This document shows, one piece after another, positions 30,761 to 60,559 of a stretch of 64,000 nucleotides of DNA (positions are counted from its first letter, which is position 1; each line of letters begins with the position of its first letter). The position numbers and the translations under genes are program-made. The notes under the pieces are model-generated. The model was not told the origin of the DNA and did not search any database. It saw only the letters and a program-made list of their open reading frames with translations. The DNA is taken from positions 30,091 to 94,090 of IMG/VR virus record IMGVR_UViG_3300009502_000026. One strand, 5' to 3'. Source of the stretch: a virus.

Positions 30761-31405
30761 CTAATGTCCCTGACCCCAAGGGGTCACATATAGAGGTTTA
30801 CCATCCCACTTATGGACACTTACAACAGAATTGATCCTAGCACCCCCGGGTCCTGGGGCTTTTCGGATGACAGGTCCAACATACTTCCCCGGAACAGGCA
30901 TCACATGATCATCACTGACAGACTTTTGAGCAATCTCACGAAGTTCTACCATCTTTGGAGAGGGCAAACCTACAACCTCATAAGTATCAGTCTGTGTTTG
31001 ATCATAGCCCCAGGAACCAACCAGGATGTCCCCCACTTGAAGGCCATGCTGGAAGTTCTTTCTGGCATCTACCTGCTCTTGCTTGTAAGCTAGAGTCTTC
31101 TTTCGGTCATCAATCGTATCCTGGATGTACTTGTCTCTGGGTGTCTCACCCATGAAGCTGTTGTACCACAAAGGCTTCTGAGACTTACCCATGAAGGCAA
31201 CCGCACCGGGCTTACCCCTGGGAGTGATATAGGTATAGATTTCCAGATCCGTTCCCTGTGTATCCACAGAGACAGCATCCTTTGGGACATAGATACTATG
31301 GGGCACAGGCACCCTTCGCATAGCCTTCTTCAGGAGAGGAAGAATCCTGTGACGAAGCTCAGGCTTCTCATGGGCTAGCTTGACGAGTCGGGTACAGAGG
31401 GTCAT
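30761..31405 (-). CDS. targeting-module protein with conserved SWGYDQT domain
   Basis: 214 aa. Residues 1-28 are the module (TLCTRLVKLAHEKPELRHRI, then LPLLKKA). Residues ~115-214 contain LQVGDILVGSWGYDQTQTDT, then YEVVGL, VPGKYVGPVIRK and, at the end, WDGKPLYVTPWGQGH, a domain I recall as widespread in phage and plasmid proteins (a small barrel often reading YSWGYDQTN...Y), with unknown role. The module would direct it to the prohead. It is the third of a run of module proteins in this region. Confidence 0.72.
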   Translation of the reverse strand: MTLCTRLVKLAHEKPELRHRILPLLKKAMRRVPVPHSIYVPKDAVSVDTQGTDLEIYTYITPRGKPGAVAFMGKSQKPLWYNSFMGETPRDKYIQDTIDDRKKTLAYKQEQVDARKNFQHGLQVGDILVGSWGYDQTQTDTYEVVGLPSPKMVELREIAQKSVSDDHVMPVPGKYVGPVIRKAPGPGGARINSVVSVHKWDGKPLYVTPWGQGH

Positions 31406-31441: not shown

Positions 31442-31903
31442 CTACCGTGAAAGGGTCTCAACCAGAGCAGTCCACAGTGGATACCTGTGTTTCACATCCC
31501 CATCAGTATGATAACTGGCAAAACTATCGGCAAAAGCTTCTTCCATGTTGTGTTGACCAAATGGAAGTGTGGATGTCTCCCAAGGATTGATACCCAACGC
31601 TTCGGCTGACTCTATCAGATTCGAAAGACCAGCCTCGGATTCTACATGGTGCCCAAACTCATGGGTGAGAACAAAATCCTGGACAACTGAGGGCAACTCC
31701 CAGAACTTTGGGTAAAGCTCGATTCCCTTAGATGTGTACCTAGCTTCGGGATGACTGCCAGCCCCAGGATGGTCAATCTTTGTAATCCTCACCCTTGAAT
31801 ACTTACGAAGGGCAGAATGACGGGTGAAATACTTCTTCAGCCATGTCTCAAGATTGACTTCACGAAGAGCCCACAGAAATCTGGTTGCTACTCTGGTGTG
31901 CAT
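31442..31903 (-). CDS. small HExxH metallopeptidase-like protein
   Basis: 153 aa. LTHEFGHHVESE (His81, Glu82, His85) is a zincin active site, and EEAFADSFASY ~40 residues later supplies a plausible third ligand (E..A.D), a layout seen in small gluzincin-like domains. The N-terminus MHTRVATRFLWAL lacks the LAH module but has the RVAT motif recurring at domain borders elsewhere. It abuts the module protein 31904-32284 by one base; the two may act as a pair. Substrate unknown. Confidence 0.75.
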   Translation of the reverse strand: MHTRVATRFLWALREVNLETWLKKYFTRHSALRKYSRVRITKIDHPGAGSHPEARYTSKGIELYPKFWELPSVVQDFVLTHEFGHHVESEAGLSNLIESAEALGINPWETSTLPFGQHNMEEAFADSFASYHTDGDVKHRYPLWTALVETLSR

Positions 31904-32284
31904 TTATCTTGCCCTTGTGTAAGAGCCTAACATGATCTTACTGACTTCTTTCAAGTCCAATCCAGGATTCAGACTTCCCAGCCGTACCCAGATTCTCCCA
32001 TAGGCACCCTGAAGCCATCTCTTGAGGTCTTCATCGGAAACACCTAACCGCTTTGCAGTAGCTCCCGCAGATACCGCTAGAATCTCGGCTCTCTCGGCTG
32101 CAATGGCTGTCTTGTCACCACCCTTTGCCCGTGCCATCTCATCAGCTTGACCAAACATCCTAATAACCATGGCATCCAGCTTCTCTACCAAAAGATTACC
32201 TGCCTCTTTCAACATAGGGAGTAGGTGGGGTCGGAGAGAAGGCTCATTGTGGGCAAGTCGAATAATCTTGGAACGGAGAGTCAT
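31904..32284 (-). CDS. small targeting-module protein
   Basis: 126 aa. MTLRSKIIRLAHNEPSLRPH followed by LLPMLKEAG is one of the best copies of the module and ends LKEA, matching a T4-like prohead cleavage rule. The remaining ~95 residues are helical (MVIRMFGQADEMARAKGG, WLQGAYGRIWVRLGSLNP), without a recognised fold. Directly upstream of the zincin gene with which it shares the stop/start region. Confidence 0.75.
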   Translation of the reverse strand: MTLRSKIIRLAHNEPSLRPHLLPMLKEAGNLLVEKLDAMVIRMFGQADEMARAKGGDKTAIAAERAEILAVSAGATAKRLGVSDEDLKRWLQGAYGRIWVRLGSLNPGLDLKEVSKIMLGSYTRAR

Positions 32285-33856: not shown

Positions 33857-34735
33857 TCAGCGGGTTACCGTGAGCCTTACGAGGCCCCTGGGGTTGTACG
33901 CCCCAATACCCAAATTCTCAAACACCGAGAAGCCGATGGTGCGTGCCTTGGGGTCGTCTGCGGAGAGGACCGTGAGCTCAGTGCGGACGGGAATCCGGCC
34001 GAACATCTCGGGTTCGCAGCAAACGTAGATCGTTCCAACCGGAACGAGCCTGGAAGTGATGATCTGGGCTCCCCAGAGAGTGGCCTGGAGGCCAGTCTTC
34101 AGGAGAGTTGCCTGACTCTCGATATCCAGGATGTCACGGCCGAACTTCCTCACGTCGGCGTAATCCCTTGCGTTCATGTAAACACGGGCAACCCGGAGGT
34201 CGTGCCGCTCGATGAGTGCAAAGGCATCAGCCAGAACCGCACCATTGACCGGAGCGATGACCGGCACGTCAGGGTTCGTCCCACCGGGGAGGGAATCGAA
34301 GCCGTTGACTGCGATGGCATCGAGAACTGCGAAGACTCTCTCGTCTTCCGCAGCCTGGATCTGGGCACGGGCAAGATCCTGAGCCCGCTCGATCAGGTCA
34401 AAGCGACGTTCTTTGATCTGGGTGAGAGGAATCTCAGGGTTCGAAGCGACTTCGAACAACGGAAAGATCACCCTACGGGGCTTGGTGATTGCGAGGATGT
34501 TCTCCCCTTCTTCACCTACCACGTATGCGGTCACATCCGGGTCCTTGTCGTAGATCGGGAGCGCACCATCAGGAAGCTGCTCAACCAAGAAGGTCTTGCG
34601 GCCGACTGCGGTGTAGTCACGACGAGTACGAAGGGGCTGGGTCATGGAAGCAGCAAGCTTCGCACGGCCAGTTGCCGTCTTCAGGTACTCAGAGATGATC
34701 TGCTGCTTGACAGCGTTGCTTACGGGGGTAGTCAT
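33857..34735 (-). CDS. major capsid protein (HK97 fold)
   Basis: 292 aa. The pattern ITKPRRVIFPLFEVASNPEI followed by LIERAQDLARAQIQAAEDERVF (here split in text: LIERAQDLARAQIQ, AAEDERVF) is the E-loop/spine-helix region typical of large-phage capsid proteins, and RVYMNARDYADVRKFGRDIL, LWGAQIITSRLVPVGTIYVC and VFENLGIGAYNPRGLVRLTV are the P- and A-domain strands. Third positions are C/G-rich compared with neighbours, in line with very high expression. It follows protease, scaffold and 34759-35472 in the classic assembly order. The first ~30 residues (KTATGRAKLAASM) may be removed during maturation. Confidence 0.88.
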   Translation of the reverse strand: MTTPVSNAVKQQIISEYLKTATGRAKLAASMTQPLRTRRDYTAVGRKTFLVEQLPDGALPIYDKDPDVTAYVVGEEGENILAITKPRRVIFPLFEVASNPEIPLTQIKERRFDLIERAQDLARAQIQAAEDERVFAVLDAIAVNGFDSLPGGTNPDVPVIAPVNGAVLADAFALIERHDLRVARVYMNARDYADVRKFGRDILDIESQATLLKTGLQATLWGAQIITSRLVPVGTIYVCCEPEMFGRIPVRTELTVLSADDPKARTIGFSVFENLGIGAYNPRGLVRLTVTR

Positions 34736-37108: not shown

Positions 37109-39868
37109 CTAAGATGTCGATTTCTCTCTCAGTGCCAAGAGTTTCGCCATCCTAACCAGAACTGTTGCCTCTTGGGTTGTGGGCTCTCGGCCCATCGTGA
37201 ACTCACAAGCCTGGAGGAAAGTAGTCAGGGACCGGAACCCGGTAGGAGACCCTACCATCCCTGCCACCTTGTACAGGTCACTAGCGATCTTGATACCCTG
37301 CGAATTGTTCAGGGCTTCTAGCTTGAAGATGAAGTCATTGTCAGAGCTTGCAGTTCTAACAAGTTTCTGAACCGTAGCCTTGTATTGGGCTACCTTGGGG
37401 GTACTTCCAGTGATCAGAGTTGCTTGGGGAACCAACTTAGGAGTATGCCCCACTACCTTCACACTAGCCTGACTCACCAAGGTATCGTTGGGGGCATCAG
37501 AAGAAGGAGCCGCAGGGTTAGTATTCCCATAGGGGGCAGACCCCCCATTCATGGCATCCTGGACTCTCTTCTTGACCCTATCCAGCATCTTCCCGTAAAG
37601 CTCATCTTCCATGTCCTTCAGAGGATCAGGCTTGGCTTCAGGGGCAGGTTCCGTAGCAGGAGCATCAACTCCCTCATCCTCAAACTCCTGTGCTACACAG
37701 GAGCTTGCTGCCTTAGCTAGACCCTCTGGGAGATTAGAGAAGTCATTCTTGGGCAAGGTCTTCGGGATACTGAACATTTTCTTCCCACTAGGAGAGAAAG
37801 CTGAATCCCCTACCACCTTGACAGGACCACGAGCTACGGCACCTGTAAAGGCTGGGATCTTCACCCAAGATCCTTCCACAAAGACCACACCCCCTGTTGC
37901 ATCCTCTGTCTCATGTCCACAGAGTTCCGCAATCTGATGCCTCTGCCCCATCTCATCAAAGAATATATTGCCCTTCAGGTGACGGATGCAGTTACAGAAC
38001 TCCGTCTCATCTGAAGCCCAATTCCCACACTTTGTACATGTCGTACTCTGTGTAGTGCAACCCATAGATAGGGAATCAAGAGCACCGGATTCAATGTCCT
38101 GGATGAGTTGAACATGCTTACGGTCATTAGCTACCAGGATGTCCACGTACACAGAGGGGCCAATGTCCCTGGCTACAGCATCAATGATCCGACCCTTGGA
38201 GAGCTCCTCAATCTGAACGTGCTCCACGAAACTGTGAGCACCGATCAAAGTAGGGTAGGACTTCAGGAGTACCGGACGAGACCACGCATCAGAGTTATGA
38301 ACAGCGATCCCCCCTGCGATATAGGAATTGTCCTCTTCTACCTCAAGGTTATGGACCTTGCCCTGGTACTCCACAACCTCTACAGATTCTACGATCTGGA
38401 GGCAGTAGCCATTCAAGAACCGGAGATCAGGTACCTTCTGGACCTCACCATGGGATTCCAGAAATGCAGCATAGGCACCCTCATATTTGGTACCTTCCAG
38501 TAGATCATTCAGATAACCAGCCCCGCAGGATAGAGTCCACCCCTGGGTCTCTTTGGTGGGGTCTGAAACCACAATCGGTTTACCGTCCACTACCAATCGT
38601 TTACGGCCCTCCAGGACAGCAAAGGTCCACTGGGGGGCCACCCCCAACCTATGGAGGATCAAACGTACTTGGTTGATCAGGGATACACTTGCGGAACTAC
38701 CCGTCAAGCGGGCATCCCCAATCTTGGAAGTAAAAAAACTCCCATCCCCCTCAAACCACCCCTTGACTACCTCTTCCTGTACCTGATGTGAGGCACGGAG
38801 GAGATCCTCATGCAAACTCTTGGTCTTTGACCCATCGCCCAACACCCAACGAGAGAAGAACTCCACCAGGGGCCTATTGGTCTTGGTCGTGACCACAATC
38901 CCCTTATCAGTCTGATGATACCTGATAGTGCTGTCTGCCCCAAACTCTGACTTGAGGAGAGAACATACAGTTTTCGCTAATGTATTCTCCTCACTCAGGT
39001 TGAAGGCAAAGCACACCCCTACCCTCTCATTGTCCTTACGGGAGTCCAGTTCATAGTAGCCTTCCGCAAGAAAGAGCCCGAGAAGCCTAGCTTGGCCCGG
39101 TGTCAACCCCACAGAGACATCCCCATCCAGGATGGGTGTGGCTACAAAATCCCAATGATCCCTCACCTGACCAACAGGTACGAATTCTCCCCTCTTCTCA
39201 GTCAGAAGATCACGTTTAGGGATTCGCTTGCTGTAATAGCAAGCCCCACTACAGTAGAATCTGTCCAGAAGGTGGGAAATACACTTGCTGGCATGGTGGA
39301 TATTGGACCCGCACTGAATACAGGCTTCCTGGGGGCGGAACACGAAGAATGGGTGTTCCCGGGTTACATATAGTCTCTCGTTACACCCACGGTACTTCAA
39401 CCCCAGAAGTGCCCCATCAACCTGATGGCTATAGGTCTGGAGAACTTTACGTGCCCTTCCTGTATGAGTCAGAACCTCATCCCCCACCTGTACCTGCTCA
39501 ATGGGCTTAACCGTCCCATCTGACATTGTAATGGATGTGCCAGGAATGAAGCAGTTATTGTTGATCCATTTTTCGCAGTCAGCTTTGACCCGGAAGTCAG
39601 CATACTTCCGGTTGATCTTCTGACCATCAAACTGAATCATGCCCAGCTTGGTACCGGGAGTAGCAACCGTATCTACCGAAGCTACCAGAGTTGCGTGAGT
39701 GAGAAGGTACTTGGAAGGGTCAAATGACTCCCCAAGAATATCAGAAGCTTGCTTCACCAAGTCCCTGTCCAACCGGGTAGACCCGGATGCTACACGGACA
39801 TCATCCCATACTCCATCCCGGAGCTTGGGAACGGTGACCAGAGCTCTTGCAGTTCTTAGGAAGGCCAT
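37109..39868 (-). CDS. prohead maturation protease, interrupted by an intein
   Basis: 919 aa, of which residues 106-525 are an intein. The 499-residue host protein shows a prohead protease core: GAHSFVEHVQIEELSKGRII (His550 is the probable catalytic His), DILVANDRKHVQLIQ and ESGALDSLSMGC (Ser601 the probable nucleophile), a pattern like T4 gp21-type proteases. It is followed by a zinc-ribbon segment (CTKCGNWASD, FCNCIRHLKG). The C-terminal third is charged, with a helical end (ALNNSQGIKIASDLYKVAG). It cleaves scaffold and head proteins during maturation. GGGGTAAGTCC precedes the ATG. Confidence 0.85.
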   Translation of the reverse strand: MAFLRTARALVTVPKLRDGVWDDVRVASGSTRLDRDLVKQASDILGESFDPSKYLLTHATLVASVDTVATPGTKLGMIQFDGQKINRKYADFRVKADCEKWINNNCFIPGTSITMSDGTVKPIEQVQVGDEVLTHTGRARKVLQTYSHQVDGALLGLKYRGCNERLYVTREHPFFVFRPQEACIQCGSNIHHASKCISHLLDRFYCSGACYYSKRIPKRDLLTEKRGEFVPVGQVRDHWDFVATPILDGDVSVGLTPGQARLLGLFLAEGYYELDSRKDNERVGVCFAFNLSEENTLAKTVCSLLKSEFGADSTIRYHQTDKGIVVTTKTNRPLVEFFSRWVLGDGSKTKSLHEDLLRASHQVQEEVVKGWFEGDGSFFTSKIGDARLTGSSASVSLINQVRLILHRLGVAPQWTFAVLEGRKRLVVDGKPIVVSDPTKETQGWTLSCGAGYLNDLLEGTKYEGAYAAFLESHGEVQKVPDLRFLNGYCLQIVESVEVVEYQGKVHNLEVEEDNSYIAGGIAVHNSDAWSRPVLLKSYPTLIGAHSFVEHVQIEELSKGRIIDAVARDIGPSVYVDILVANDRKHVQLIQDIESGALDSLSMGCTTQSTTCTKCGNWASDETEFCNCIRHLKGNIFFDEMGQRHQIAELCGHETEDATGGVVFVEGSWVKIPAFTGAVARGPVKVVGDSAFSPSGKKMFSIPKTLPKNDFSNLPEGLAKAASSCVAQEFEDEGVDAPATEPAPEAKPDPLKDMEDELYGKMLDRVKKRVQDAMNGGSAPYGNTNPAAPSSDAPNDTLVSQASVKVVGHTPKLVPQATLITGSTPKVAQYKATVQKLVRTASSDNDFIFKLEALNNSQGIKIASDLYKVAGMVGSPTGFRSLTTFLQACEFTMGREPTTQEATVLVRMAKLLALREKSTS
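38294..39553 (-). mobile_element. intein with LAGLIDADG endonuclease (protease gene)
   Basis: 420 residues, from Cys (after WINNN) to Asn (VHN before SDAW). Block A is CFIPGTSITMSDGTVKPIEQ; the end is GKVHNLEVEEDNSYIAGGIA followed by VHN. LLGLFLAEGYY and VVKGWFEGDGSF are the two LAGLIDADG-type motifs, both with the catalytic acid (Glu, Asp), so the endonuclease looks intact. It is inserted upstream of the catalytic core. Confidence 0.9.
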
Positions 39869-41145: not shown

Positions 41146-44100
41146 TCACCAATCAGCTAACTCCGGTTCCGTAGAAAGGCTGAAAGCATCCTCATCGTCC
41201 TCATAATCCCCTTCTACTAACCCATGCACAAGGGATCGAGCCATATTAGGTTCTTCATACCCATCCTTCTCTATAGCCCTGTTGATGGCTCTGATCCTCT
41301 CCAACTCAAAAAGGTCATTGTCCTCTTTCGTAGGAACCTCACCCTTCTTGAGCTTTTCAAGACGCTCCTCATACTTCTTCTGGTAATCAGGGTCCTTATT
41401 CAGAATATCACTTTGCTCCGCTGCTACTTCTTCCGGTGTTTTCTTTGCTCTCTCTTTCTTAGGAGTCATGCTCTTCACAGCCGCAGAGAGAACACCTGCA
41501 TCATTCATCCAAGCATTCCAGAACATTGACCGAACACTGAGTTGCTGTTCAGGATTCAGAGTACCAGACCTAAACATCTTCAAAAGCTTATTGTATGGGT
41601 GATTCCCTTTTCCTGAATAAGAACCTTCAATGATAGCAGCTAGAGTGTCATCATCAATACCACCATCCTCACCTAGGTCTCTTAGAAACTCCCTGCTTGG
41701 GCCTACCCCTGCATTGATGATATCAGTGCCGCTATCCAGAATTTCCCTCCCAAACTCACCACCCATACCCTCATTTTTACCATCCCCATGAAGGGTGCGA
41801 ACCAATGCAATTGTATTTTGTGATGGGGCAGGCAGTTCACGGATGTCAGGTTGATTCTCTCCAGCTATGATCGAAGCTAAGTATACATCTCCTAAATGTG
41901 CCTTCAATTTCTGTATCTGTTCTTGTGCCTTGGGGTCATCTTGGTCCAATTTGGAGATGCCACTCCTAATACTTTCAATGGCTTTAGTCCTGATCTTCTT
42001 ACCTTCTTCAGGACTCTTCCCATCCTTACCGTGAATCATGTCACGGAAGTTTCTACTCCTGGGAGTCTTGACCGTCGGGCCCTTCCACTTCTTATCCGCA
42101 CCTTTTGGCTTAGAATCTTCCGGGAAAGCCTGATCGGACTTGGGCTTCTCTCCCTTGGGCTTCTCCCCTTCAGATTTCTCAGGCTCCTTCGGTGCTTCAC
42201 CCTCTGTAGGTGCCTTCGGCTCCTCTCCAGGAGTCCCTGTAGCTGGAGTTTTCCCCTTGGGAGTCCCAGGCTCGGGTTCTGGCTTAGGCTTAGGCTTAGG
42301 TTCTGTCTCTGTCGGAGGAGTCTCAGACTTGGGTTCTGGCTTAGGTTCCGGCTTAGGCTCGGGTTCTGGCTCTGGCTCCTTCTTAGGTGCCTTCCCCTTG
42401 TGAGCCTTCTCTGCCTTCAGTCTAGCCTTCTCAGCATTCTTAAGCTCCTTCTCCATACCTTGGAGGTCATCAGTTGAGTCACTGAGAGTGTAAGCATCCT
42501 CAGTGAATTCCTCCATAGTCACTGGTGGGTCCAAGCTATCAACAAGGACTTTGACTTCAGCTTCTATCTTTGCTCGTTTCTTTGGGTCGGAGGTTTCAAT
42601 AAACCTCTCAGCTACATCAGCAAGATCACTCTTGATGCTCTTGTACTTACTTTCGAGTATGTTTACCTTGTCTTGGAGGGTCTTATGATTGCCCTGGAGT
42701 TCCTCTACTTTCTTGGTAGCCTTTTCCAGAACTGACCCAGTATCTTCATCATCTTCACTAGCATCCCCACTACCCGTGGCGAATGCCTTAGCTTCATCCT
42801 TGGAGTCAAAGGTCTTGGCTGTGCCCTCAGAGTTGATACCCCTCCAGTTCTTCTCCTCAGTCTGCCAATAGTCACCAGACTTATGCTCAGGGGCATCTTT
42901 GATACCCACTACTTTTGGGGGAGGGGATACTTCCCCAAGTTTTACCAAGAACTTATGTGCCACCCTCTTGAAATTCAGAGTCAAGTCTGGGTCGGTCTCA
43001 GCAGACTGCCCCCCAAGGTCACCATCTCGATCAGGGTCTACTCGATGATCCCGTAGGTCTTGCCGAGGGGGCTTCTTCTTAGGATCAGGTTTGATGAGGT
43101 CTTTCGCTGCCTCATCTTCACGTTCCCCATCACTCTTAGTGGCAACTCTAAAGACTGCATCTGCATCTGACAGGTAACCCCCGTCAATGAGGGACCTGTA
43201 CAAGGCTTTCAGCATCAGAGCCTTGTTTCTCTCTGTCAGATAGGGACTAACATCCTTCCAAGTGTCATTAGTGAGAAGAATGTACCTGATGAACTCCTGA
43301 CCCTTGAAGTGATCTGCAAATTTGGGAGCCATCTCCAATGCCTTATCCACAAATTCCTGCATATATGCACGAACTTCATGGGGGTCATTGTAGTATTTCT
43401 CTGGGTCAATGTTCCTGGGAACTTCCCGGGTAGTAGCCCTGTTCTTCTGTTGTATATCCAGAACGTGGGTCATCTCATGTAAGAGCATCTGTCGGAAGTC
43501 CCTAGCCATGAACTCGACCGACTCCCGAAGTGCCTTCGTTGTGTACCTCCCATTCAGGTTCAAGACGATAGCTGGACGGGAACCCATTGACCCCTTGCCC
43601 CCCGATAGAAGGAGTTGTGGACTGTCACTCACAACGCTGGTGACCCTGAGTACTGGAACCAGGATGTTCTTCCCCTCAACCCCTAGGGCATCTGAGAATC
43701 TGTCCAGGTCTTTCTGAAGTACAGCATGATTGGGTGCCAACTGGCCGAGGGGCTCATCCTGGGGATGACGCCTTCCCAATTCTCGCTTCAAGTCCACGAT
43801 CAAATCCTGGACTTCGGCATCAATGAGACTCTTGTCAATCGGGATGGGCCTGGAAGCGATCTTGAACGACTTAGGGACTGCCCCATCCTTCAGATAAGTG
43901 TCTTCCATACCGGGCACTAGATACTGGGACCTGAGCGTAGCAGGCTCATGTCCTACAACCTCTGCCGTCTCTTTTAGTGCCTTCAGGAACTCATCCTTCA
44001 GGAGCTTCTTACGTTCCTTGGGATCAGTGGGTAGAGCCTTACCATTCTTCCGTGCCTCACCAAGCTTCTGACGCATGGTATCATTGGCATGGAACCCACG

Positions 44101-45183
44101 GATGTCCTTGGCAGTAATATCAAATGGCTTCAGGTAGGAGTTGACATGCTCTGCCGTTAGGTCAAAGTCTTCAACCTGAAGAACCTTGTCATTCGGCTTC
44201 TTGCCCTCAGTGTACTCCTTCAGGAGTTTGACAACTGCCCCAGTGTCTACTGTCTTTTCATGCTTGACACCGGATTTCCCCACGTATTTGATAACAGCCT
44301 TTCCCTTGGGGAAAGTGACATGTTTCACTTTCCAGCCTGTGACTCCAAAATGACCCTCACTAGCTGACTCATCATTTCCGATTCTCTCACAAGTTTCATC
44401 CATGAGAGCTACAGCGAGAGCCGTGAGCTTGGTCTCCTCACTACCAGAACTCAGGTCTTTACGCACCTTGGCACGAACTTCGGAGATGCCCTTACGAAGC
44501 TTCTCCACCTGTTCAGCCTTCTCCTTGTTCCTCTTTGCTACCTGCCTAGGGCCGTATTCATAGTGGACGTTCCCCTCGGAGTCCTTCTTCTTGTCTATGT
44601 ACTTGCCCCACTTGTCCAGGAACAGACCCGCAATCTTCACTGGGGACGCTATCCTTGGGGTCCACAACTGGGAGGCTACTCGACCTTCGGGAGTAGTATG
44701 AAGTTTCACTCTTGGGATGATATCCGGGAAACCCCAGATTTCCATCTCATCAAAACTCCAAGAACCACCCGGTACTTCTCCCTTGTATTCCTCAGTCAAC
44801 CCTGTGAGGTACTCCAGAGTGACATGGGGACGGTAGATCAGAGGGAAACTATCAACCACTTCAAAGTTTGCATCAAGGAGTGCCTGACGGAGATTCCACT
44901 TAAGGGCAGAAAGATCCTTGTCCATCTGGACAAGATCAACAGCTACTCTTCTTTCCTTATCAGGATTGACAAAGTACTCCATTCCTATCAGCGTAGCTGT
45001 GACAGGTCCACGGAACTGCGTGAACGTAGCCTGAACGATCTTCAGGAACTCAGTCCTACGTCCGACCGGAATCTCCCCTACATACAGAAAGGTGACATGA
45101 GGGGGAGAATCGTCCTCTTCTCCAAGGGGAGGGAACCTGGAAGCCATCTCATCCGGGAGAGGTATGAATAGTCCAACACCCAT
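41146..45183 (-). CDS. 1345-aa multidomain protein: 2H phosphoesterase + topoisomerase IB + HExTH zincin + charged tail
   Basis: Residues 1-160 are a 2H phosphoesterase (PHVTFLY at 28-34 and RPHVTLEY at 118-125, two H-x-T motifs). Residues ~183-435 are a poxvirus-type topoisomerase IB with all five catalytic residues: Arg267 (ERIGND), Lys303 (YVGKSG), Arg362 (KDIRGF), His412 (VVGHEPATL) and Tyr421 (RSQYLVPG); His to Tyr is 9 residues, as in vaccinia. Residues ~450-660 contain LLHEMTHVLD (His569, Glu570, His573), a zincin. After ~680 the chain is Lys/Glu/Pro-rich and helical. RVAS, RIAS, KIAS and RVAT tetrapeptides lie at the domain borders. It is probably packed in the virion or a morphogenesis polyprotein; delivery is inferred. 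Confidence 0.82.
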   Translation of the reverse strand: MGVGLFIPLPDEMASRFPPLGEEDDSPPHVTFLYVGEIPVGRRTEFLKIVQATFTQFRGPVTATLIGMEYFVNPDKERRVAVDLVQMDKDLSALKWNLRQALLDANFEVVDSFPLIYRPHVTLEYLTGLTEEYKGEVPGGSWSFDEMEIWGFPDIIPRVKLHTTPEGRVASQLWTPRIASPVKIAGLFLDKWGKYIDKKKDSEGNVHYEYGPRQVAKRNKEKAEQVEKLRKGISEVRAKVRKDLSSGSEETKLTALAVALMDETCERIGNDESASEGHFGVTGWKVKHVTFPKGKAVIKYVGKSGVKHEKTVDTGAVVKLLKEYTEGKKPNDKVLQVEDFDLTAEHVNSYLKPFDITAKDIRGFHANDTMRQKLGEARKNGKALPTDPKERKKLLKDEFLKALKETAEVVGHEPATLRSQYLVPGMEDTYLKDGAVPKSFKIASRPIPIDKSLIDAEVQDLIVDLKRELGRRHPQDEPLGQLAPNHAVLQKDLDRFSDALGVEGKNILVPVLRVTSVVSDSPQLLLSGGKGSMGSRPAIVLNLNGRYTTKALRESVEFMARDFRQMLLHEMTHVLDIQQKNRATTREVPRNIDPEKYYNDPHEVRAYMQEFVDKALEMAPKFADHFKGQEFIRYILLTNDTWKDVSPYLTERNKALMLKALYRSLIDGGYLSDADAVFRVATKSDGEREDEAAKDLIKPDPKKKPPRQDLRDHRVDPDRDGDLGGQSAETDPDLTLNFKRVAHKFLVKLGEVSPPPKVVGIKDAPEHKSGDYWQTEEKNWRGINSEGTAKTFDSKDEAKAFATGSGDASEDDEDTGSVLEKATKKVEELQGNHKTLQDKVNILESKYKSIKSDLADVAERFIETSDPKKRAKIEAEVKVLVDSLDPPVTMEEFTEDAYTLSDSTDDLQGMEKELKNAEKARLKAEKAHKGKAPKKEPEPEPEPKPEPKPEPKSETPPTETEPKPKPKPEPEPGTPKGKTPATGTPGEEPKAPTEGEAPKEPEKSEGEKPKGEKPKSDQAFPEDSKPKGADKKWKGPTVKTPRSRNFRDMIHGKDGKSPEEGKKIRTKAIESIRSGISKLDQDDPKAQEQIQKLKAHLGDVYLASIIAGENQPDIRELPAPSQNTIALVRTLHGDGKNEGMGGEFGREILDSGTDIINAGVGPSREFLRDLGEDGGIDDDTLAAIIEGSYSGKGNHPYNKLLKMFRSGTLNPEQQLSVRSMFWNAWMNDAGVLSAAVKSMTPKKERAKKTPEEVAAEQSDILNKDPDYQKKYEERLEKLKKGEVPTKEDNDLFELERIRAINRAIEKDGYEEPNMARSLVHGLVEGDYEDDEDAFSLSTEPELADW

Positions 45184-45184
45184 T

Positions 45185-46114
45185 TTAACCCCCTACCGGG
45201 TCTGATGGAGATGATAGGCAATACCCATTTTCATCTACATCACAAAGCTCGATACCATCATCTTCAGTGGCATCCACCCAAACCATGTGGACAACATTTT
45301 GAACCACGGCATCCAGGTCAATGAAGTCATGGTCCGGTTCTGGACCAGAGTCATACATAGAGATGAAAGCAAACTGTGTCCGTTGATCTTCCGGGAGTCC
45401 CCGTTCTGCCACAGGAACATTCCAGTCCTCAAACTCAGGGATAGCCTTCAGGCTGGTATCTACCAGGGAGTAAAGTTCCCTTCGGTCGTTGAACCAGAGA
45501 ATCTCCTGCCTACCTATTGTCTCTGCCTTGGGACGGAGAATATCTGAAAGCTTCTGGATTACAACTTCCAGGTTCTCTGGGAAGTCATAGGGAGACTGAC
45601 GAATACCCCACAAAGCTACGGCTCCTGTGATATGATTCAGGAACACCATAACCTTTTCCCGCTCGGCCTTGGCTACCCGTGCCATGTGGGCATCTGCCAC
45701 AAGGCTAGCCAAGGTGAGCTTCATAGATCCGACCTTCAACCCCGCTGCGGGTGATCCCTCCAGGAATACCATTGGGAGCAAGCCCTTCCTGAAGAGTCTC
45801 ACTCGTTGAGCAATGTACCTGGGGGACCTCATCCCCACTTCCCACTTGATCCCTAAGTTCCTGATAGCCTCTGCCAACGGGAAAATGGTCTTCCATTTCC
45901 CTGTCTTGTCCAGGGAATTCCCTTCCTCAATGAAGGCTTCGATAGTGATAAAATGCTTACGAATACAGTCCCTACAGTGCTTTCCAGGGTCATTCAGGTG
46001 GTCCTCCAAGAGAACCATCTGTTTGCAAGCTTCCCTGAAACAGAACTCAGGATTGTGTATCGGCAGAAGAGCCGGTAAGTTGGTTGGGTCGAGGATACAG
46101 GAATGTTTCCGCAT
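45185..46114 (-). CDS. Cys-containing virion-type protein
   Basis: 309 aa. Residues ~20-70 contain FCFREACKQMVLLEDHLNDP followed by GKHCRDCIRKHFITIEAFIE, a CxxC-type cluster with a conserved helical look I recall from other large phages (CKQxxLLEDHL...RCxDCIRKHLL). The rest is helical, then polar with an acidic end. It is one base upstream of the 1345-aa gene and follows the portal. Its leader has a hairpin near the ribosome site. Function unknown. Confidence 0.65.
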   Translation of the reverse strand: MRKHSCILDPTNLPALLPIHNPEFCFREACKQMVLLEDHLNDPGKHCRDCIRKHFITIEAFIEEGNSLDKTGKWKTIFPLAEAIRNLGIKWEVGMRSPRYIAQRVRLFRKGLLPMVFLEGSPAAGLKVGSMKLTLASLVADAHMARVAKAEREKVMVFLNHITGAVALWGIRQSPYDFPENLEVVIQKLSDILRPKAETIGRQEILWFNDRRELYSLVDTSLKAIPEFEDWNVPVAERGLPEDQRTQFAFISMYDSGPEPDHDFIDLDAVVQNVVHMVWVDATEDDGIELCDVDENGYCLSSPSDPVGG

Positions 46115-46155: not shown

Positions 46156-49100
46156 CTACCCGAATCTTCCACCACCCTCATCAGGCTTCTTGTACTTGAG
46201 CTTCAAGTACTCAGCGATCCTCTCCACTACATCAGAATTCTCGGCAAGGTTCCTACCGGCTTCAGTGTAGATACCCCGGAGAACTTCATTGAACGTGGAG
46301 TCATTCAGGGTAAACACATCCCGCATGAGCTTCTCGTTCGTAGCCGTGGGGTCAATGTTCAGGAGTTCCAGGATGATATCAATATCCAGAGAACCCTTCT
46401 GATAGAGGTTGAACAAAGCATCGAAGGTATCAGCATTGTCCCGAAGGGCAAGACGGGTGAAGGTAAGGGTTGGGACAACCACTTCTTCATTCCCATCCTC
46501 ATCGAGCTCAATGAACCCCATGCGCTTACACATGGGAGCCAGCATGTTCTGTTCAACCATCTCCTGGAGGATTTCCCGCAGAAGCATGAACCGGGTGTTG
46601 ATAACCTCCAGATTGATCCTGTCACCGGAGTAGCTGGACTCCCCAGACAAGAGAGATTCAGTGACCCCCAGACCGGCATACAACTGCCTATCTGTCTGGT
46701 CATACTCAGTCGAGAGTTCCAGGAGACGCTGACTAGACCCCATCTCCTCCCAATTGACCTGGAAGTTGGTGATGATGGAGTAGTCCGGGTCCATCAGGGC
46801 CATATCCACCTGATCCCGGAGGTTCTCTACATCTGCCACATCCATATCTTCGGCATAGACCAGCCGAATAGGAGTCATGTGGCGAGAAGCAATCTGTGTC
46901 TGGGACTGACGGAGCTTATCCCGATAGACCAGGGTACGAATGCAGTTATGGACTACGATCCCACCGGCTACTAGAGTCTCATCATCCTCTACATCAAAGG
47001 AATAGACCGGACCCTGATAGTGGAACCGTTCCACTTTATCAAGGGTATGTGTTGTCCAACGGTCATCCTTCTTGAAGTACCCAAGTCTGATCTTCTCTTT
47101 GTAGCCCTGAAGGTAGGGCTTCGTGGCACTTGACCACACAGAGAAACTAGACATCCGGGCCATTGTAATAGGTGAATGAGTACGGAGCACATAAGTAGTG
47201 AAAGCCCCGTAGGAATAGGTCTTGTCCCTAACACGGGATACCCTAGGGTGTGCTTTGGGGAACTTTGCACGCCCCCCTATAGGCTTCCCCCCCACTACCT
47301 TCTTCACCTTACGGGAACTCTTACGGCTCTTCCACCGATCTACCGAAAGGTTCAGTCTCTTACACACCAGATACAACTGCGAAGTCAAAATTGCATCATG
47401 GAGATGAAGCTCCATAAGCTTCTTCCCAATGGTTTCTACCCTACCGCTACTGTCAAGAATACCCCCCAAAAGTGCCAGAAGGTACTTCTCTCGGACCCCA
47501 AACATCCAGTCAGGAAGTATCTTGGACTTACCATACTGGAAGTGTTCGTGAATCCAACGAGCCAGTAGGGCATCCGGCAACTTGAGAGTAGTGTGTGCCC
47601 CAGAGTCTTCAATCTCTATGGACTCTTCCCCAAAGACATTCTGGAGAGCTTCCTTGAGCTTGAGGACACAATGGGAGTGCTTCTTGTCTATCCACCACTC
47701 AGTTACATACTGGGCTGGTGAAGAATAGGTGGGGAGTTTCACCTTCCCCTTAGCTACCCATGCACCCAGGATGTAGCAGAGGTCTTCGGTCATCTTGAAG
47801 GAGACAGTATGAGGGGCAACTGCATGTCCCCAGGCAAAGGCACCAGGAGCCGGTAGGAACTCAGGATAGGCAAGGCCCCCTGGGGAAGCCCTGCACATCG
47901 AGTTCTCCCAATGGTCTGCTAGATCGAACCGGAGGGGCACCTTACGGTCATGTGTACGGATATGACTCTCCCGTACCTTGTCCCCAGCCTTGATGTCCCC
48001 AGCCAGGACTTCTTCTTCCTGACCCTCTGCGTTGATCCTTATGATCTTGTGATCTTTGGTGAAGCAGATAGGGTCACGGAGAGAGATAGAATGGATTGTG
48101 ATACCCACAACCTCTTCATCTACATTCCGAGTGCCCTTAGAAGCTTTACGAAAGCGACCTTTCCCTGTCAGGAGAAGATCAGTGTTCACATCCACTTGCT
48201 CAACCGGGATATTGACAACCAAACCCTGCCGATTGACCGTGATAGGTGTTCCAGGAAGAATACAGCGTTCCAGGACCGAATGGCCCCTGGGCTCATACTG
48301 TGACTTCTTCCTTGCCATGTAAAACACAAAACTCCCGGATTCGGGGTCTGTGTTCAGAGGAATGTTTTCCCCTTTCCGAATGGAATCCACAACCATTGAG
48401 GGCATGGAATCCACGATCCGTTGGGCCTGGGGGTCTCCAGCTTCGGCCTTGTGGATGATGTCTTTGGTCTTGCTATCAGGAACCAGTTCAATGAGTTTCT
48501 GGTCAGTGAAAGGATAGCTCTCCATGTGAATCTGTTCCGGGGGCAACACCCGAATTGCAGACCAACCATGGTAGTTTCTCTTCAACCACTTGACCGCACG
48601 CTCATTGGCATCCTGTCGATCTTGCCACTCTTCCGCAACACTTCCGTCTTCCTGAAGTACCCTGAATATCTCCTGAGTGATATCCTGGGGCATGTCTTCA
48701 GAAGCATCCTCACAGAAGATGAATACCTCACCCAACAGGTTGTAGTCATGGACGATTTCGATGAGACGATGAAGAAGTCCAATCTTCTTCGCCCACTTTG
48801 CACAAAAATTCAAGGATCTTTGTGCAATGTCACGATTCTTAGCCTTGGGCATACCAAGGCGAACCTTAGACAGAGGAAGTTCTGTCTGTAGGTCCAGAGC
48901 TTGGCCTACGAACGGATCAGCCCCGTAGAAGAACCGGAAATAGTTCCTCTTTTCATCGAGGGACTGAGGGAGTTCCAGGAAGTCTGTGGAGAGCTCAGGG
49001 CTGTAGAAATTGCCCCCAGAACCCTGGACAGAACCACTCACTGAAGGATAAGCCACCTTGGATCGAAGAAACCCTGTGGCAATCTTCGGGGGCTTCCCTA

Positions 49101-49176
49101 CCTTCACACCCTTCCGGGGAGGTACTTTCCCAACAGTTACCGCTTCAGTCTTATCAGTCTTATCAGCCATAGTCAC
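46156..49176 (-). CDS. portal protein, interrupted by an intein
   Basis: 1006 aa, of which residues 305-744 are an intein. The host protein (566 aa) has portal landmarks: YFRFFYGADPFVGQALDLQT near residue 85, LIEIVHDYNLLGEVFIFCED near 140-156, GWSAIRVLPPEQIHMESYPF near 205, and after the intein IRTLVYRDKLRQSQTQIASR, TNFQVNWEEMG, QLYAGLGVTESLLSGESSYS and INTRFMLLREILQEMVEQNM. The portal forms the ring through which DNA enters and leaves. KIATGFLRSKVAYPS near residue 35 is a basic N-terminus of the RVAS/KIAT type. Upstream of the protease and downstream of TerL, as expected. Confidence 0.88.
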   Translation of the reverse strand: MTMADKTDKTEAVTVGKVPPRKGVKVGKPPKIATGFLRSKVAYPSVSGSVQGSGGNFYSPELSTDFLELPQSLDEKRNYFRFFYGADPFVGQALDLQTELPLSKVRLGMPKAKNRDIAQRSLNFCAKWAKKIGLLHRLIEIVHDYNLLGEVFIFCEDASEDMPQDITQEIFRVLQEDGSVAEEWQDRQDANERAVKWLKRNYHGWSAIRVLPPEQIHMESYPFTDQKLIELVPDSKTKDIIHKAEAGDPQAQRIVDSMPSMVVDSIRKGENIPLNTDPESGSFVFYMARKKSQYEPRGHSVLERCILPGTPITVNRQGLVVNIPVEQVDVNTDLLLTGKGRFRKASKGTRNVDEEVVGITIHSISLRDPICFTKDHKIIRINAEGQEEEVLAGDIKAGDKVRESHIRTHDRKVPLRFDLADHWENSMCRASPGGLAYPEFLPAPGAFAWGHAVAPHTVSFKMTEDLCYILGAWVAKGKVKLPTYSSPAQYVTEWWIDKKHSHCVLKLKEALQNVFGEESIEIEDSGAHTTLKLPDALLARWIHEHFQYGKSKILPDWMFGVREKYLLALLGGILDSSGRVETIGKKLMELHLHDAILTSQLYLVCKRLNLSVDRWKSRKSSRKVKKVVGGKPIGGRAKFPKAHPRVSRVRDKTYSYGAFTTYVLRTHSPITMARMSSFSVWSSATKPYLQGYKEKIRLGYFKKDDRWTTHTLDKVERFHYQGPVYSFDVEDDETLVAGGIVVHNCIRTLVYRDKLRQSQTQIASRHMTPIRLVYAEDMDVADVENLRDQVDMALMDPDYSIITNFQVNWEEMGSSQRLLELSTEYDQTDRQLYAGLGVTESLLSGESSYSGDRINLEVINTRFMLLREILQEMVEQNMLAPMCKRMGFIELDEDGNEEVVVPTLTFTRLALRDNADTFDALFNLYQKGSLDIDIILELLNIDPTATNEKLMRDVFTLNDSTFNEVLRGIYTEAGRNLAENSDVVERIAEYLKLKYKKPDEGGGRFG
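46945..48264 (-). mobile_element. intein with degenerate LAGLIDADG motifs (portal gene)
   Basis: 440 residues, from Cys305 (after VLER) to Asn744 (VVHN before CIRTL). Block A is CILPGTPITVNRQGLVVNIP; the end is VYSFDVEDDETLVAGGIVVH followed by N. The endonuclease motifs read LGAWVAKGK and LLGGILDSSG: the catalytic acids are replaced (Lys, Ser), so homing activity is probably lost while splicing residues remain. Confidence 0.9.
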
Positions 49177-49527: not shown

Positions 49528-49788
49528 TTACCACCGTAGAGATGGGGTCAGATGTCCATATTTGATGGCAATAGTAATGATCTTCTTGAGAAGAAGGATG
49601 TCCTCAATAGAACCTTCAAAGACCCCTTCCCACGATCCCCCAGCCTTGACAAAGACCCGTGATACCTTGTCATACTCAGTAGGAATATGAACCACCTTGT
49701 TTGGATGGACAGATTCAAGGATCTTACGGATGATCCTATGATCAGACCTGACAGGACTGGTGGGAGTGAGGCTTGCTGTGCGATTCAT
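49528..49788 (-). CDS. small unknown protein overlapping TerL stop
   Basis: 86 aa. TSPVRSDHRIIRKILESVHP begins the sequence, and the C-terminal part SIEDILLLKKIITIAIKYGH is helical. Its start overlaps the TerL stop by 4 bases (ATGA-type coupling). Small genes here often encode head-completion or terminase partners. No fold recognised. Confidence 0.58.
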   Translation of the reverse strand: MNRTASLTPTSPVRSDHRIIRKILESVHPNKVVHIPTEYDKVSRVFVKAGGSWEGVFEGSIEDILLLKKIITIAIKYGHLTPSLRW

Positions 49789-52700
49789 CTTCCACGCTTC
49801 CTACCTGCCAAGCCACCCGTACCCCCCATTCCAGACCAGCCACTCCTACCACTAGGGACACCCATTGCAGGAAGTCCACGGGGAGCCATTCGAGACTCAT
49901 GGCTCCCACTAGCAAGAATTCGTTTCCGAGCCTTCATTGCACCAGAGGGGGTACGGGGCACCTGACCATTGTCCATGAACCGAGAGGTTCCTCCTGCATG
50001 TGTGATATAGGATGGTTTTCCAAGTACGTTGGATGCAGCCCACACCATTCTAATCAGAGCATCAGAACGGTCATCATGCTTCCCCTCCATATTGGGGGCT
50101 TCCACCGTAACTACATACTTACTATGATACTCTGCCTGAAGCTCCATGAGTTCCACAATGTAATCACAATGGTTGGCACCATCAGGAATCGGAAAATCAT
50201 ACATGACCAGCTTATGGTCATACATCATGTCCTTGAAGTTCTGGAACATCTGGGACGTGAGTATCTTTGTCATCTGTGTAGCCTTCATCTGCCGAAGGCC
50301 ACGCTTGGCAAGTGCCTGTTCCAGGGGGATACCTGCCCACTGGTCAAAGATACCTTCATGGATCAGGAACTTCTTGGACAGTTCTGCAATCCAGTCAGCT
50401 ACAGCATCGAAGTCCAGCCGCTCGACGTTGATGTACTTACCTTCTCCAGCCTTGATCTGGTCTACAAGATCGACTATGATCTTTCTCTCAGCGAGGTCAA
50501 TGTGTCCAAGTGCAATTGCCGTCGCATCACCCGACAGACCCAAGTCCAATCCAAGGAAGTAGGATTGCCTGGGAACCCCGTAATACTTCGGGCGAGCCCC
50601 AGGGTCCACGCAATCCATCAGGTCCTTGTCACGCTCAATCCAACCACGGGTCCTGTCAGTGAACTCCCCCCCGTACTCAGTGAAGAACACTGAAGGGTCT
50701 TTCAGGTAGTGCTTTTCAAACTCCTCGGCAGGAATCGTAGGATTGACTTCCCAAGTTGGTGCCTGGATGCACACCATGTTCTTGGAAGCCTTGCCACCCT
50801 TCATCCCAATCTGAAATAGCTTGTAGAAAAGACCTTGCTTTCCTAGGGGAGATGAAATCGAGATGATCCGGCCCTCTACTGGACCAATAGGAACTCTCTT
50901 GTCACTAGCCTTCTTGGGAGAGAAAGCTGAAGTAGACGGGGTAACCGCATTGTAAACGGACTCTGCGGAAGACTGCCCTTTGTCTGTGAAGTGGGCAATC
51001 TCGTCCAGAATCACGACTAGGTTACCGGCACCACGAAGACCCTTGGCTACACAGGATCGGAAGGTGACCTTAACCGAGGCCCTTGCATTAGGATTCTCAA
51101 TATACCTACCGTACTTTTCAATGTCCTTGGGTGTCTGGAAACGAGCATAGGACATGGTATTGTTGGCTGTATAAGGTACGAAGAACTCACACCCCCTGAA
51201 ATGCCCTGAAGTTTCCTGATAGAGAAGTCCTGCCTGATCCTTGTCCGTAGCAACCGAGATGATCTGGATAGGGTTGCTGGAAGGTAGCCCGTAGTATTGA
51301 TGTGGGTCACTCTTCAGGATCAACTTGTAAGTCTCATAAGCTGCGATAATGGCACCTATGGCCGTATTGTGGTTGGTCATCCCCCCAGCTACAAAACTCT
51401 CCCCTTCTGGGACGGTCAGATCATATACCCTAGCCTCACCTGAATTTACGGTTTCTACGGGATCGTAGAAATAGTTGGCCGTCTGAAGTACCTCAAAATG
51501 ACGTATCACATCTGGGTCTGCCCCTAAACTCTGAGCCATTGCCAGTGTGGGGCCAAGCCTGGGGTATGTCATGGACTCCTTGGAACTCGGTTTGATGGTG
51601 TTCCCCAAAGCCGTCCGCAACAAACTACGATGCCAACCTGGACGTTTCCCATGCCCCCCACGGTTACAGGTCACAGATTGAAGTAGGGCATCACACCAGG
51701 ATCGTTGATGGGGAATGTTTTCAGCATCCGATCCTTCTTTGGAAGTCCTAGCCAAAGATGCCAACACTGGGTCATTTTTCTTGGACGACCTAAATCCAAT
51801 CTCGTCCATGAACTTCTGACGGGAGGCCGTACCTCTCACGTACACGTTGTAGTAGAATCGCTTGTACTTCTTATTCCACTTTGCCCGTCGAGTACTCACA
51901 ACCCCGAAGTTCAGGAGAAGTATTTGAACTTCCCGTGCAAGTTGCTCCGATGCCGAAGAGAACGATACAGCCAACCCCCCCTTCTCTGAGCAACCATCAG
52001 TCTCAAACAATCCCTGTAGGAACCTCTGCACAACAATCTTAGGGGACCTCATGATGGTCCACGGGACGTGCTTGGTATTCCTTGTAATATCCCATGCGAA
52101 CCCCAGCTTGTGTAGAAACTTCCTCACATGAGTGCTGAAGAAGTCAATGGAGCCAGTGTTGTTGGTCCGCTTGTCCATACGGACGTTGAAAGATCCGAAT
52201 AGACTGGTGTACAGCGCCTTCAGTTCCTCCCAGGTCTCTGGATGCTCTACAGTCACAGACACCGCATTGTGCTTCGTCCATGAACCACCCCCGACCAAGT
52301 ACCCCAGGAAAAGTCCCCATTCTTCAGTAAGCTCAGTTGGGAGAGTCACCCTGGGGTCTTCACATCCAGTATGGAGGGACTCCAACGGTACCCTCTGAAC
52401 AGGCCAAAGGTCAGATGTGCGATGAATAGCGATCTGGTCACCAAGATGGATATGGTCCAGGTATCTCCATTGGATGGTGCCACCTTCGGACATCACCCTA
52501 ACTCGGTGACCAGCGGTACCCTCAAGTTCATACCCACTACGGGTCACAAACTTGATTGTAGGTTTCACCCCTCCATTGTAGAAGAATGCAGAATCAGACC
52601 TGACACCATTCTCCTGGACCACACCAATTTCCAAAGGCTGGTACTCAGGACCCTTGGAATCTCCGAGGTCCTGAATGGGGATTATGCCCTGGTTGGTAAG

Positions 52701-53078
52701 AACCAGGGTATCCCCAACCACACATTTCCCAGAACGTCTCCCGATGGACAGGACGATCTCCCTACGTTCTACTCCAGGGATGACCTCCCGGATATTGCTC
52801 CTACCCTCCCGGTAGAGCATCTCCAGGTATTCAACCTCAGTATACTCAGTGAACTTTTCCCATCTCCAATCGTGGACAGTGAACCGATTGGCTGGGTCAT
52901 TATCAAGCTCAATCCCATAATGGGCTTTGAGGATGATCTTCTGTACTGGAAACAGCTTTAGGTTCAGCCCCCAGTCAGACTCAGTGAACTCAATGATGTT
53001 TGCTACTTGAGAAGTACTTTTCGTAATGTTTGCTGCGGCCCTAGCAGAGCCCAATGCAATCTCACCTAGATTACCCAT
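49785..53078 (-). CDS. terL: terminase large subunit, interrupted by an intein in the Walker A motif
   Basis: 1097 aa, of which residues 119-571 are an intein; spliced length 644. The ATPase P-loop SIGRRSGK is cut exactly after Lys118 and resumes at Thr (TAIGAIIAAYETYKL), so GRRSGKT is rebuilt only by splicing. Walker B is NLVVILDEIAHF. The RNase H-like nuclease is YFLGLDLGLSGDATAIALGH (first Asp) with a C-terminal HDDRSDALIRM acid. It packages DNA into proheads and cuts it. The C-terminal tail is Gly/Arg/Met-rich. It is the strongest phage hallmark here. Confidence 0.9.
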   Translation of the reverse strand: MGNLGEIALGSARAAANITKSTSQVANIIEFTESDWGLNLKLFPVQKIILKAHYGIELDNDPANRFTVHDWRWEKFTEYTEVEYLEMLYREGRSNIREVIPGVERREIVLSIGRRSGKCVVGDTLVLTNQGIIPIQDLGDSKGPEYQPLEIGVVQENGVRSDSAFFYNGGVKPTIKFVTRSGYELEGTAGHRVRVMSEGGTIQWRYLDHIHLGDQIAIHRTSDLWPVQRVPLESLHTGCEDPRVTLPTELTEEWGLFLGYLVGGGSWTKHNAVSVTVEHPETWEELKALYTSLFGSFNVRMDKRTNNTGSIDFFSTHVRKFLHKLGFAWDITRNTKHVPWTIMRSPKIVVQRFLQGLFETDGCSEKGGLAVSFSSASEQLAREVQILLLNFGVVSTRRAKWNKKYKRFYYNVYVRGTASRQKFMDEIGFRSSKKNDPVLASLARTSKEGSDAENIPHQRSWCDALLQSVTCNRGGHGKRPGWHRSLLRTALGNTIKPSSKESMTYPRLGPTLAMAQSLGADPDVIRHFEVLQTANYFYDPVETVNSGEARVYDLTVPEGESFVAGGMTNHNTAIGAIIAAYETYKLILKSDPHQYYGLPSSNPIQIISVATDKDQAGLLYQETSGHFRGCEFFVPYTANNTMSYARFQTPKDIEKYGRYIENPNARASVKVTFRSCVAKGLRGAGNLVVILDEIAHFTDKGQSSAESVYNAVTPSTSAFSPKKASDKRVPIGPVEGRIISISSPLGKQGLFYKLFQIGMKGGKASKNMVCIQAPTWEVNPTIPAEEFEKHYLKDPSVFFTEYGGEFTDRTRGWIERDKDLMDCVDPGARPKYYGVPRQSYFLGLDLGLSGDATAIALGHIDLAERKIIVDLVDQIKAGEGKYINVERLDFDAVADWIAELSKKFLIHEGIFDQWAGIPLEQALAKRGLRQMKATQMTKILTSQMFQNFKDMMYDHKLVMYDFPIPDGANHCDYIVELMELQAEYHSKYVVTVEAPNMEGKHDDRSDALIRMVWAASNVLGKPSYITHAGGTSRFMDNGQVPRTPSGAMKARKRILASGSHESRMAPRGLPAMGVPSGRSGWSGMGGTGGLAGRKRGR
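51366..52724 (-). mobile_element. intein with LAGLIDADG endonuclease (TerL gene)
   Basis: 453 residues, Cys119 (GRRSGK before it) to Asn571 (TNHN before TAIGA). Block A is CVVGDTLVLTNQGIIPIQDL; block B includes ELEGTAGHRVRVMSE; the end is YDLTVPEGESFVAGGMTNHN. Endonuclease motifs are LFLGYLVGGGSW (acid replaced by Gly) and RFLQGLFETDGCS (Asp kept): half decayed. Confidence 0.92.
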
Positions 53079-60551: not shown

Positions 60552-60559
60552 AGTTGACC

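Follow-up and report, generated by a model that had tools for sequence, protein, structure and literature searches.

A type IB topoisomerase chain in an enzyme-swapping slot of the huge-phage head gene cassette

Why would a huge phage encode, between its portal and prohead protease genes, a single chain that joins enzymes of such different kinds, and why would its relatives exchange those enzymes in the same place (hereafter, the slot)? The question is raised by a 1345-aa open reading frame (ORF) in a window of 64,000 nucleotides, meaning the whole stretch of DNA that was analysed, taken from the 94,090-base IMG/VR virus record IMGVR_UViG_3300009502_000026. On the minus strand, the ORF extends from an ATG at 45183 to a stop at 41146, as a single open frame with no internal stop, and a sequence-only reading of this DNA had placed it correctly at 41146-45183. 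That reading had recognized three domains, of which the type IB topoisomerase (TopoIB) was confirmed by Pfam and fold and the 2H phosphoesterase by profile and fold; for the zincin, the support comes from sequence, its fold being unmatched. The chain is probably a polyvalent protein of modular build, encoded in the head gene cassette, that is packaged and ejected with the DNA, and the retention of TopoIB in the slot of relatives while other enzymes change suggests a changeable enzyme kit packed with the DNA. Its parts are as follows.

41146-45183, minus strand: 1345-aa polyvalent chain, whole ORF (ORF reading)
44704-45177, minus strand: 2H phosphoesterase domain, residues 3-160, with H29-V-T31 and H120-V-T122 (TIGR02258, profile, fold match)
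44617-44637, minus strand: K-I-A-G-L-F-L, residues 183-189, one instance of a recurring motif, [RK]VAxx[YFW][LM], directly before TopoIB
43855-44601, minus strand: TopoIB catalytic core, residues 195-443, with R267, K303, K359xxR362, H412 and Y421 (PF01028, fold match)
43144-43851, minus strand: probable zincin-like metallopeptidase, residues 445-680, with H569-E570-x-x-H573 and E603 (motif and homologues)
42943-43143, minus strand: lineage-wide linker, residues 681-747 (ATKS..ERED..LIKPxPKKKPPRxDLR...NFKRVAHKFL)
42772-42876, minus strand: Trp motif GDYWQTEEKNWRGIN..KTFDSKDEAKAFATG, residues 770-804, present too in slot proteins that have no TopoIB
42379-42753, minus strand: predicted coiled coil, residues about 811-935 (weak coiled-coil matches and sequence)
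41497-41997, minus strand: helical C-terminal region, residues 1063-1229 (hhalign E-value of 7e-7 to other slot proteins, with and without TopoIB)

The enzyme domains of the chain

The identity of the core as a type IB topoisomerase is certain. Residues 217-416 matched PF01028 with an E-value of 3.5e-28 in Pfam, and the five catalytic residues that had been announced from sequence (R267, K303, R362, H412 and Y421) are all in place, with K359 and R362 forming the KxxR and with a His-Tyr spacing of 9, as in vaccinia. An AlphaFold model of residues 1-700, computed from a 15-sequence alignment, was confident in the 2H and TopoIB parts and poor in the HEMTH region. Whether these folds are those of TopoIB and 2H was checked by Foldseek, and both were matched; the TopoIB part retrieved the poxvirus enzyme 2h7f (E-value of 1.6e-12), the Deinococcus enzyme 3m4a (3.4e-11) and the human enzyme 1a35 (4.2e-11), so that both the Arg-Lys-Arg-His-Tyr set with its KxxR and the catalytic fold were found. 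Since the match to the poxvirus enzyme starts at poxvirus residue 62, the phage core apparently has no N-terminal clamp domain. The Arg-Lys-Arg-His-Tyr set was kept in 17 of 17 slot TopoIB proteins, and the pairwise ratio of nonsynonymous to synonymous substitution rates (dN/dS) between relatives was 0.12-0.45 for this domain, which argues against a chance reading frame.

The assignment of the N-terminal domain to the 2H phosphoesterases is well supported. The domain fell below the Pfam threshold (E-value of 0.015) and matched TIGR02258 with an E-value of 4e-6, and a profile built from four phage 2H domains retrieved solved chains of archaeal and bacterial RNA 2′,3′-cyclic phosphodiesterase-like proteins (1vdx, 3e-7; the RNA 2′,3′-cyclic phosphodiesterase 5h7e, 0.014). 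The predicted fold matched the 2′,3′-cyclic phosphodiesterase drCPDase (5h7e, 1.7e-6) and LigT in Foldseek, and also viral 2′-5′ and cyclic GMP-AMP (cGAMP) phosphodiesterases. Both H-x-T motifs expected from the earlier reading were recovered, and the domain thus shows the two HxT/S motifs in a duplicated fold by which the superfamily is recognized. Its pairwise dN/dS was 0.11-0.41, compared with 0.27-0.89 for the part behind the linker; TopoIB and 2H are under purifying selection and the C-terminal half changes faster. In one relative (L032, 1056-4802), the 2H domain appears to have lost the residues that separate the HxT motifs, either by recombination between the motifs or through an assembly fault.

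The third domain is a probable zincin-like metallopeptidase. The HEMTH reported from sequence is found at residues 569-573, and an HExxH with a candidate third ligand, corresponding to H569, H573 and E603, is kept in homologues from L096/L118 and from Salicola phage SCTP-2. One homologue is a 264-aa standalone protein of the 485-kb phage LR745208 (27% identity, E-value of 7e-11), and a weaker one is a 250-aa protein of SCTP-2, whose gene lies two away from that of a putative RNA ligase. Because HExTH and (D/T)PxExxAxxQE are common to the chain and to the LR745208 and SCTP-2 proteins, H569, H573 and E603 are candidate metal ligands. A viral scan with the zincin domain alone returned no relative, and a scan with the zincin alignment returned one. 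Two further HExxH proteins were noted in the window, a 724-aa protein with a weak LPD1 polyvalent-associated domain (27418-29592) and a 153-aa protein with a weak ATLF match (31442-31903).

A conserved slot with changing contents

The genes around the chain are arranged in the order terminase, portal, 309-aa gene, chain, g214, g181, prohead protease, scaffold-like gene, g237 and major capsid protein (MCP), the terminase, portal and protease genes each bearing an intein. The main landmarks are these.

46156-49176, minus strand: portal protein gene, with intein
37109-39868, minus strand: prohead protease gene, with intein
33857-34735, minus strand: major capsid protein gene

The order portal, g309N (the conserved module at the start of the 309-aa gene product), chain, g214, g181, protease and MCP is conserved among huge phages that share 86-94% identity in their MCPs, and the MCP of this group is encoded on 522 viral contigs of up to 618,736 bases. 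The parallel to polyvalent proteins drawn by the sequence-only reading therefore holds, since the chain stands between portal and prohead protease and its relatives swap enzymes in the same slot. Several enzymatic domains in one chain within a virion-gene context, together with domain shuffling among relatives, are the marks of such proteins, and both were found here.

The swapping takes many forms. The architecture in the window is 2H-TopoIB-zincin-linker-C-terminal region. Three relatives (L008/L029/L032) carry 2H-TopoIB-linker-C-terminal region with a separate HAD_SAK gene directly upstream, and in L007 the order is HAD_SAK-2H-TopoIB. A HAD domain precedes TopoIB in L019/L026/L033 (with the C-terminal region) and in L003/L010; in L055, a fungal tRNA-ligase CPD domain comes after TopoIB; and in L012-L014, TopoIB is preceded by an N-terminal domain that has no Pfam match. 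In G001, a separate 2H gene precedes a 2020-aa chain with TopoIB. Two bacterial metagenome-assembled genome (MAG) contigs bearing the same phage genes encode a 2086-aa chain with ChaC/GGCT, a PolyA_pol-head nucleotidyltransferase, CPD, GNAT and TopoIB, and a 1075-aa chain with an HEVGHH region, TopoIB and GGCT. Other phages of the group have a slot that holds no TopoIB, for example L048, L052, L054, L064, L067, L077, L078, L086 and L094. The earlier suggestion that the combination is rare stands for the exact order 2H-TopoIB-zincin, which was seen once, and does not extend to the pairing of TopoIB with 2H, which recurs across lineage slots. By eye, the N-terminal domain of the 981-aa slot protein of L012/L013/L014 ('FIHFTPQSRAREILASGRL') resembles the ADP-ribosyltransferase type.

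Residues 681-1345, about half of the chain, had no place in the sequence-only reading; they comprise the linker, the coiled coil, a Pro/Glu/Lys-rich stretch and the helical region. The linker of about 65 residues was found in nearly all slot proteins, those that have no TopoIB included, and in the latter phages it follows directly after the g309N module, so the enzymes look as if inserted between g309N and the linker. Single-sequence phmmer searches with the C-terminal half gave no match, and the kinship was found by profile-profile comparison alone, hhalign aligning residues 1063-1229 to other slot proteins with an E-value of 7e-7 and other groups with values of 1e-9 to 1e-17. No Pfam model matched the linker or the helical region, and the chain matched PHROG 23460, a family that has no known function. 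The common parts of the slot, in many phages of the lineage, are the TopoIB core, the Lys/Pro linker and the helical C-terminal region, effector enzymes being gained and lost around the core.

Two short recurrent sequences were also observed. The motif [RK][VIT]Axx[YFWH][LMV] was counted 54 times in lineage proteins (window and L007-L095), the MCP and g181 families being left out of the count, against about 5 expected by shuffling, and 9 times within the window against 0.5; its copies lie where domains join or at C-termini, and several chains have them bordering TopoIB. A 25-residue segment, LRxxLIxLAHxxPxLRxxLLPxL, mostly N-terminal and possibly a targeting or processing signal, has 12 copies in the 94-kb record and none in shuffled proteins; copies lie in the genes at 25642-27384 (twice), 27418-29592, 30761-31405, 31904-32284, 57231-57647 and 59397-60563, and the segment is found in five genes of L113/L114 (record bases 1-31000).

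Several other features of the region were recorded. The inteins occupy the terminase (49785-53078), portal and prohead protease genes, the one in the protease with LAGLIDADG. Two TnpB-like genes (L003, 4036-5337 and 7505-8788) lie beside terminase and portal in a related 485-kb phage, and collagen-like Gly-Pro-Ser repeat proteins are encoded in the tail/fibre region (7309-7845, 10622-11359, 11440-12384, 14995-16095 and 29614-30402). Distant MCP relatives occur in Tunturiibacter phage Tunturi_5 (47%) and Bacillus phage G (38%); these phages were rejected as positional equivalents, g309N and g181 being unmatched there and the intervening genes seemingly unrelated. A Tunturi_5 gene near its protease is annotated 'DNA ejection protein' and was not used as evidence.

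Possible roles of the chain

The analysis shows the domains, the catalytic residues, the position in the genome, the conservation and the swapping; that the chain is packaged and ejected, what each part does and in which order are our inferences. The chain would be made late, enter the head by means of the common C-terminal half and leave it with the DNA. The incoming genome would then be relaxed by TopoIB, relaxation being its simplest role, although the sequence-only reading had also named circularisation; 2H may open 2′,3′-cyclic phosphate ends in RNA or tRNA repair or hydrolyse an immune nucleotide; and the zincin may release parts by proteolysis or cleave a host protein. Four points weigh against this reading. 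The case for packaging comes from gene position only, and a place among head genes is no proof of presence in the head. Pfam and PHROGs gave no MuF match for the chain, and no domain of a known ejection protein was found in it; it is MuF-like in position and not in family. TopoIB stands almost alone as a short separate protein in L011/L015 and L006, so the enzyme need not be fused to the C-terminal region. Finally, two AlphaFold models were poor in the zincin region (the dedicated one with a predicted local distance difference test score, pLDDT, of 62), and Foldseek and VIA-align matched no metallopeptidase there.

The role of the 2H domain may be sought in RNA-end repair, for instance of tRNAs cleaved by host defence nucleases, or in the destruction of a nucleotide signal, and we cannot separate the two. 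RNA-end repair is favoured by the partners that replace one another in relatives, namely HAD_SAK, the tRNA-ligase CPD and a poly(A)/CCA-type nucleotidyltransferase, which point to it at least as much. RNA ligases were found in few of the 10 lineage records searched (PF09414 in 2, RtcB in 3) and neither in the 94-kb record itself, so a full phage-encoded RNA-repair pathway is not general; PF09511 gave no match in any record, and as the controls were silent too, this carries no information. Signal destruction is favoured by the anti-signal role proposed for polyvalent 2H domains (PMC5512222) and by the gene at 45185-46114, directly upstream of the chain in the operon, in which two parts were distinguished.

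45764-46081, minus strand: conserved head-cassette module g309N, start of the gene
45281-45655, minus strand: Tad5 domain, an inhibitor of type I Thoeris, in fusion with g309N (PF25190, E-value of 1.2e-31)

This adjoining Tad5 domain points to nucleotide-signal immunity; the fusion is a possible virion-linked anti-Thoeris factor, and it hints independently at anti-defence proteins among the cargo of the slot. The chain might, on such grounds, be mainly a counter-immunity device, in which 2H destroys a cyclic or 2′-5′ nucleotide signal, Tad5 blocks Thoeris and TopoIB protects or reshapes the DNA against nucleases. The matches of the 2H model to viral 2′-5′ and cGAMP phosphodiesterases agree with this, as does the standalone 2H neighbour in G001, which weakly matches Acb1 (E-value of 1e-3). 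However, the best structural matches of 2H are RNA cyclic phosphodiesterases, the recurring partners are of the RNA-repair type, and Tad5 was found in this record only, 1 of 15, which leaves counter-immunity as the main function doubtful.

It is also conceivable that TopoIB works in the producing cell as part of the portal/head region, where it would remove twist or knots as a very long genome is replicated or packaged, the other domains riding along. The gene does lie beside portal and terminase, and TopoIB was present in all 10 lineage records, being standalone where the slot has none, as if it were needed for growth and not for delivery: six records have the slot type alone (G003 among them, outside the conserved cassette), three have a standalone TopoIB of 450-480 aa alone, and one (G005) has both. 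Yet the coexistence of the two types in G005 speaks against that role, as does their placement in unrelated clades of a maximum-likelihood tree, in which the standalone enzymes form a separate clade (100/100), bacterial TopoIBs another (93/94) and the slot enzymes cluster with one Flavobacteriales-MAG sequence (99/99), long branches making the deeper joins unsure. The fusion to changing RNA-end and immunity-type enzymes would also be left unexplained, and we regard this role as unlikely. Tyrosine recombinases carry HxxR where TopoIB has KxxR. That the enzyme is such a recombinase, joining genome ends or integrating, is highly improbable: the two families share a fold and XerH does appear low in the Foldseek list (rank 50), but the top 22 fold matches are all TopoIB, PF01028 is matched, and K359, R362 and a TopoIB-type His at 412 are present.

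Returning to a chain delivered with the genome, a wider proposal can be advanced only tentatively: in this lineage, a TopoIB reserved for the purpose may be packaged in the virion and form the fixed centre of a cargo slot, to which each phage adds RNA-repair and counter-immunity enzymes of its own. The DNA would then enter together with the means to untwist it and to withstand host RNA cleavage or nucleotide alarms, and the arrangement would parallel the packaged topoisomerase of poxviruses, having arisen in phages independently. If the chain is packaged, a topoisomerase is sent in along with the DNA of a tailed phage, and the slot becomes a natural place to seek undescribed anti-defence enzymes; the Tad5 fusion next door links it to a known anti-defence family. 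The common linker and g309N module make the cargo findable by position alone in hundreds of huge-phage contigs, and it becomes testable whether a very long phage genome requires a swivel of its own on entry.

Comparison with known systems

Polyvalent proteins with 2H domains (also fused to MuF or portal) and with zincins were described by Iyer et al. 2017 (PMC5512222), and standalone TopoIBs are known from the jumbo phages Motura, phiRSL1, Lu11 and PaBG (PMC7824862). A TopoIB-centred, cargo-swapping slot in a huge-phage head cassette was not found in the literature searched, an absence that is weak evidence, and no paper that deals with Tad5, or with TopoIB in the virions of huge phages, was found there.

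The polyvalent proteins of phages and conjugative elements resemble the chain in being large multidomain proteins among virion genes, with 2H and zincin-like domains and rapid enzyme swapping. They differ in being defined by recurrent domains and contexts, and the main text of that study has no TopoIB, 'topoisomerase' occurring once, in the reference list (PMC5512222). The standalone jumbo-phage enzymes (PMC7824862), and with them the PhiXhv-15 topoisomerase, share the TopoIB catalytic domain, the tyrosine-recombinase superfamily and a very large phage as host; in contrast to the chain, they are encoded as separate genes (668 aa in PhiXhv-15), are only 27% identical, lie outside the portal-protease slot and have no 2H fusion. 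Bacterial 2′,3′-cyclic phosphodiesterase and LigT (5h7e, 5ldm) are alike in fold and in both HxT motifs, whereas theirs is a standalone cellular RNA enzyme.

For delivery with the genome, phiKZ offers a comparison: it packages proteins in its head and injects them, and the Tad1 that it injects blocks Thoeris and CBASS (PMC13282480). These inner-body proteins resemble the chain as head-packaged, injected jumbo-phage proteins that include an anti-Thoeris/CBASS factor; they are separate small proteins with no homology seen, and their packaging was measured, whereas here we infer it. The poxvirus TopoIB (2h7f, 1a41) is, for its part, a single-domain protein of 314 aa with an N-terminal clamp apparently absent from the phage core and with no enzyme fusion. 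Nevertheless, it is the best solved-structure match by sequence (E-value of 1.1e-13) and by fold, with the same catalytic residues and His-Tyr spacing, and the vaccinia virion contains its TopoIB (PMC6336343), so a virus can use a TopoIB in this way.

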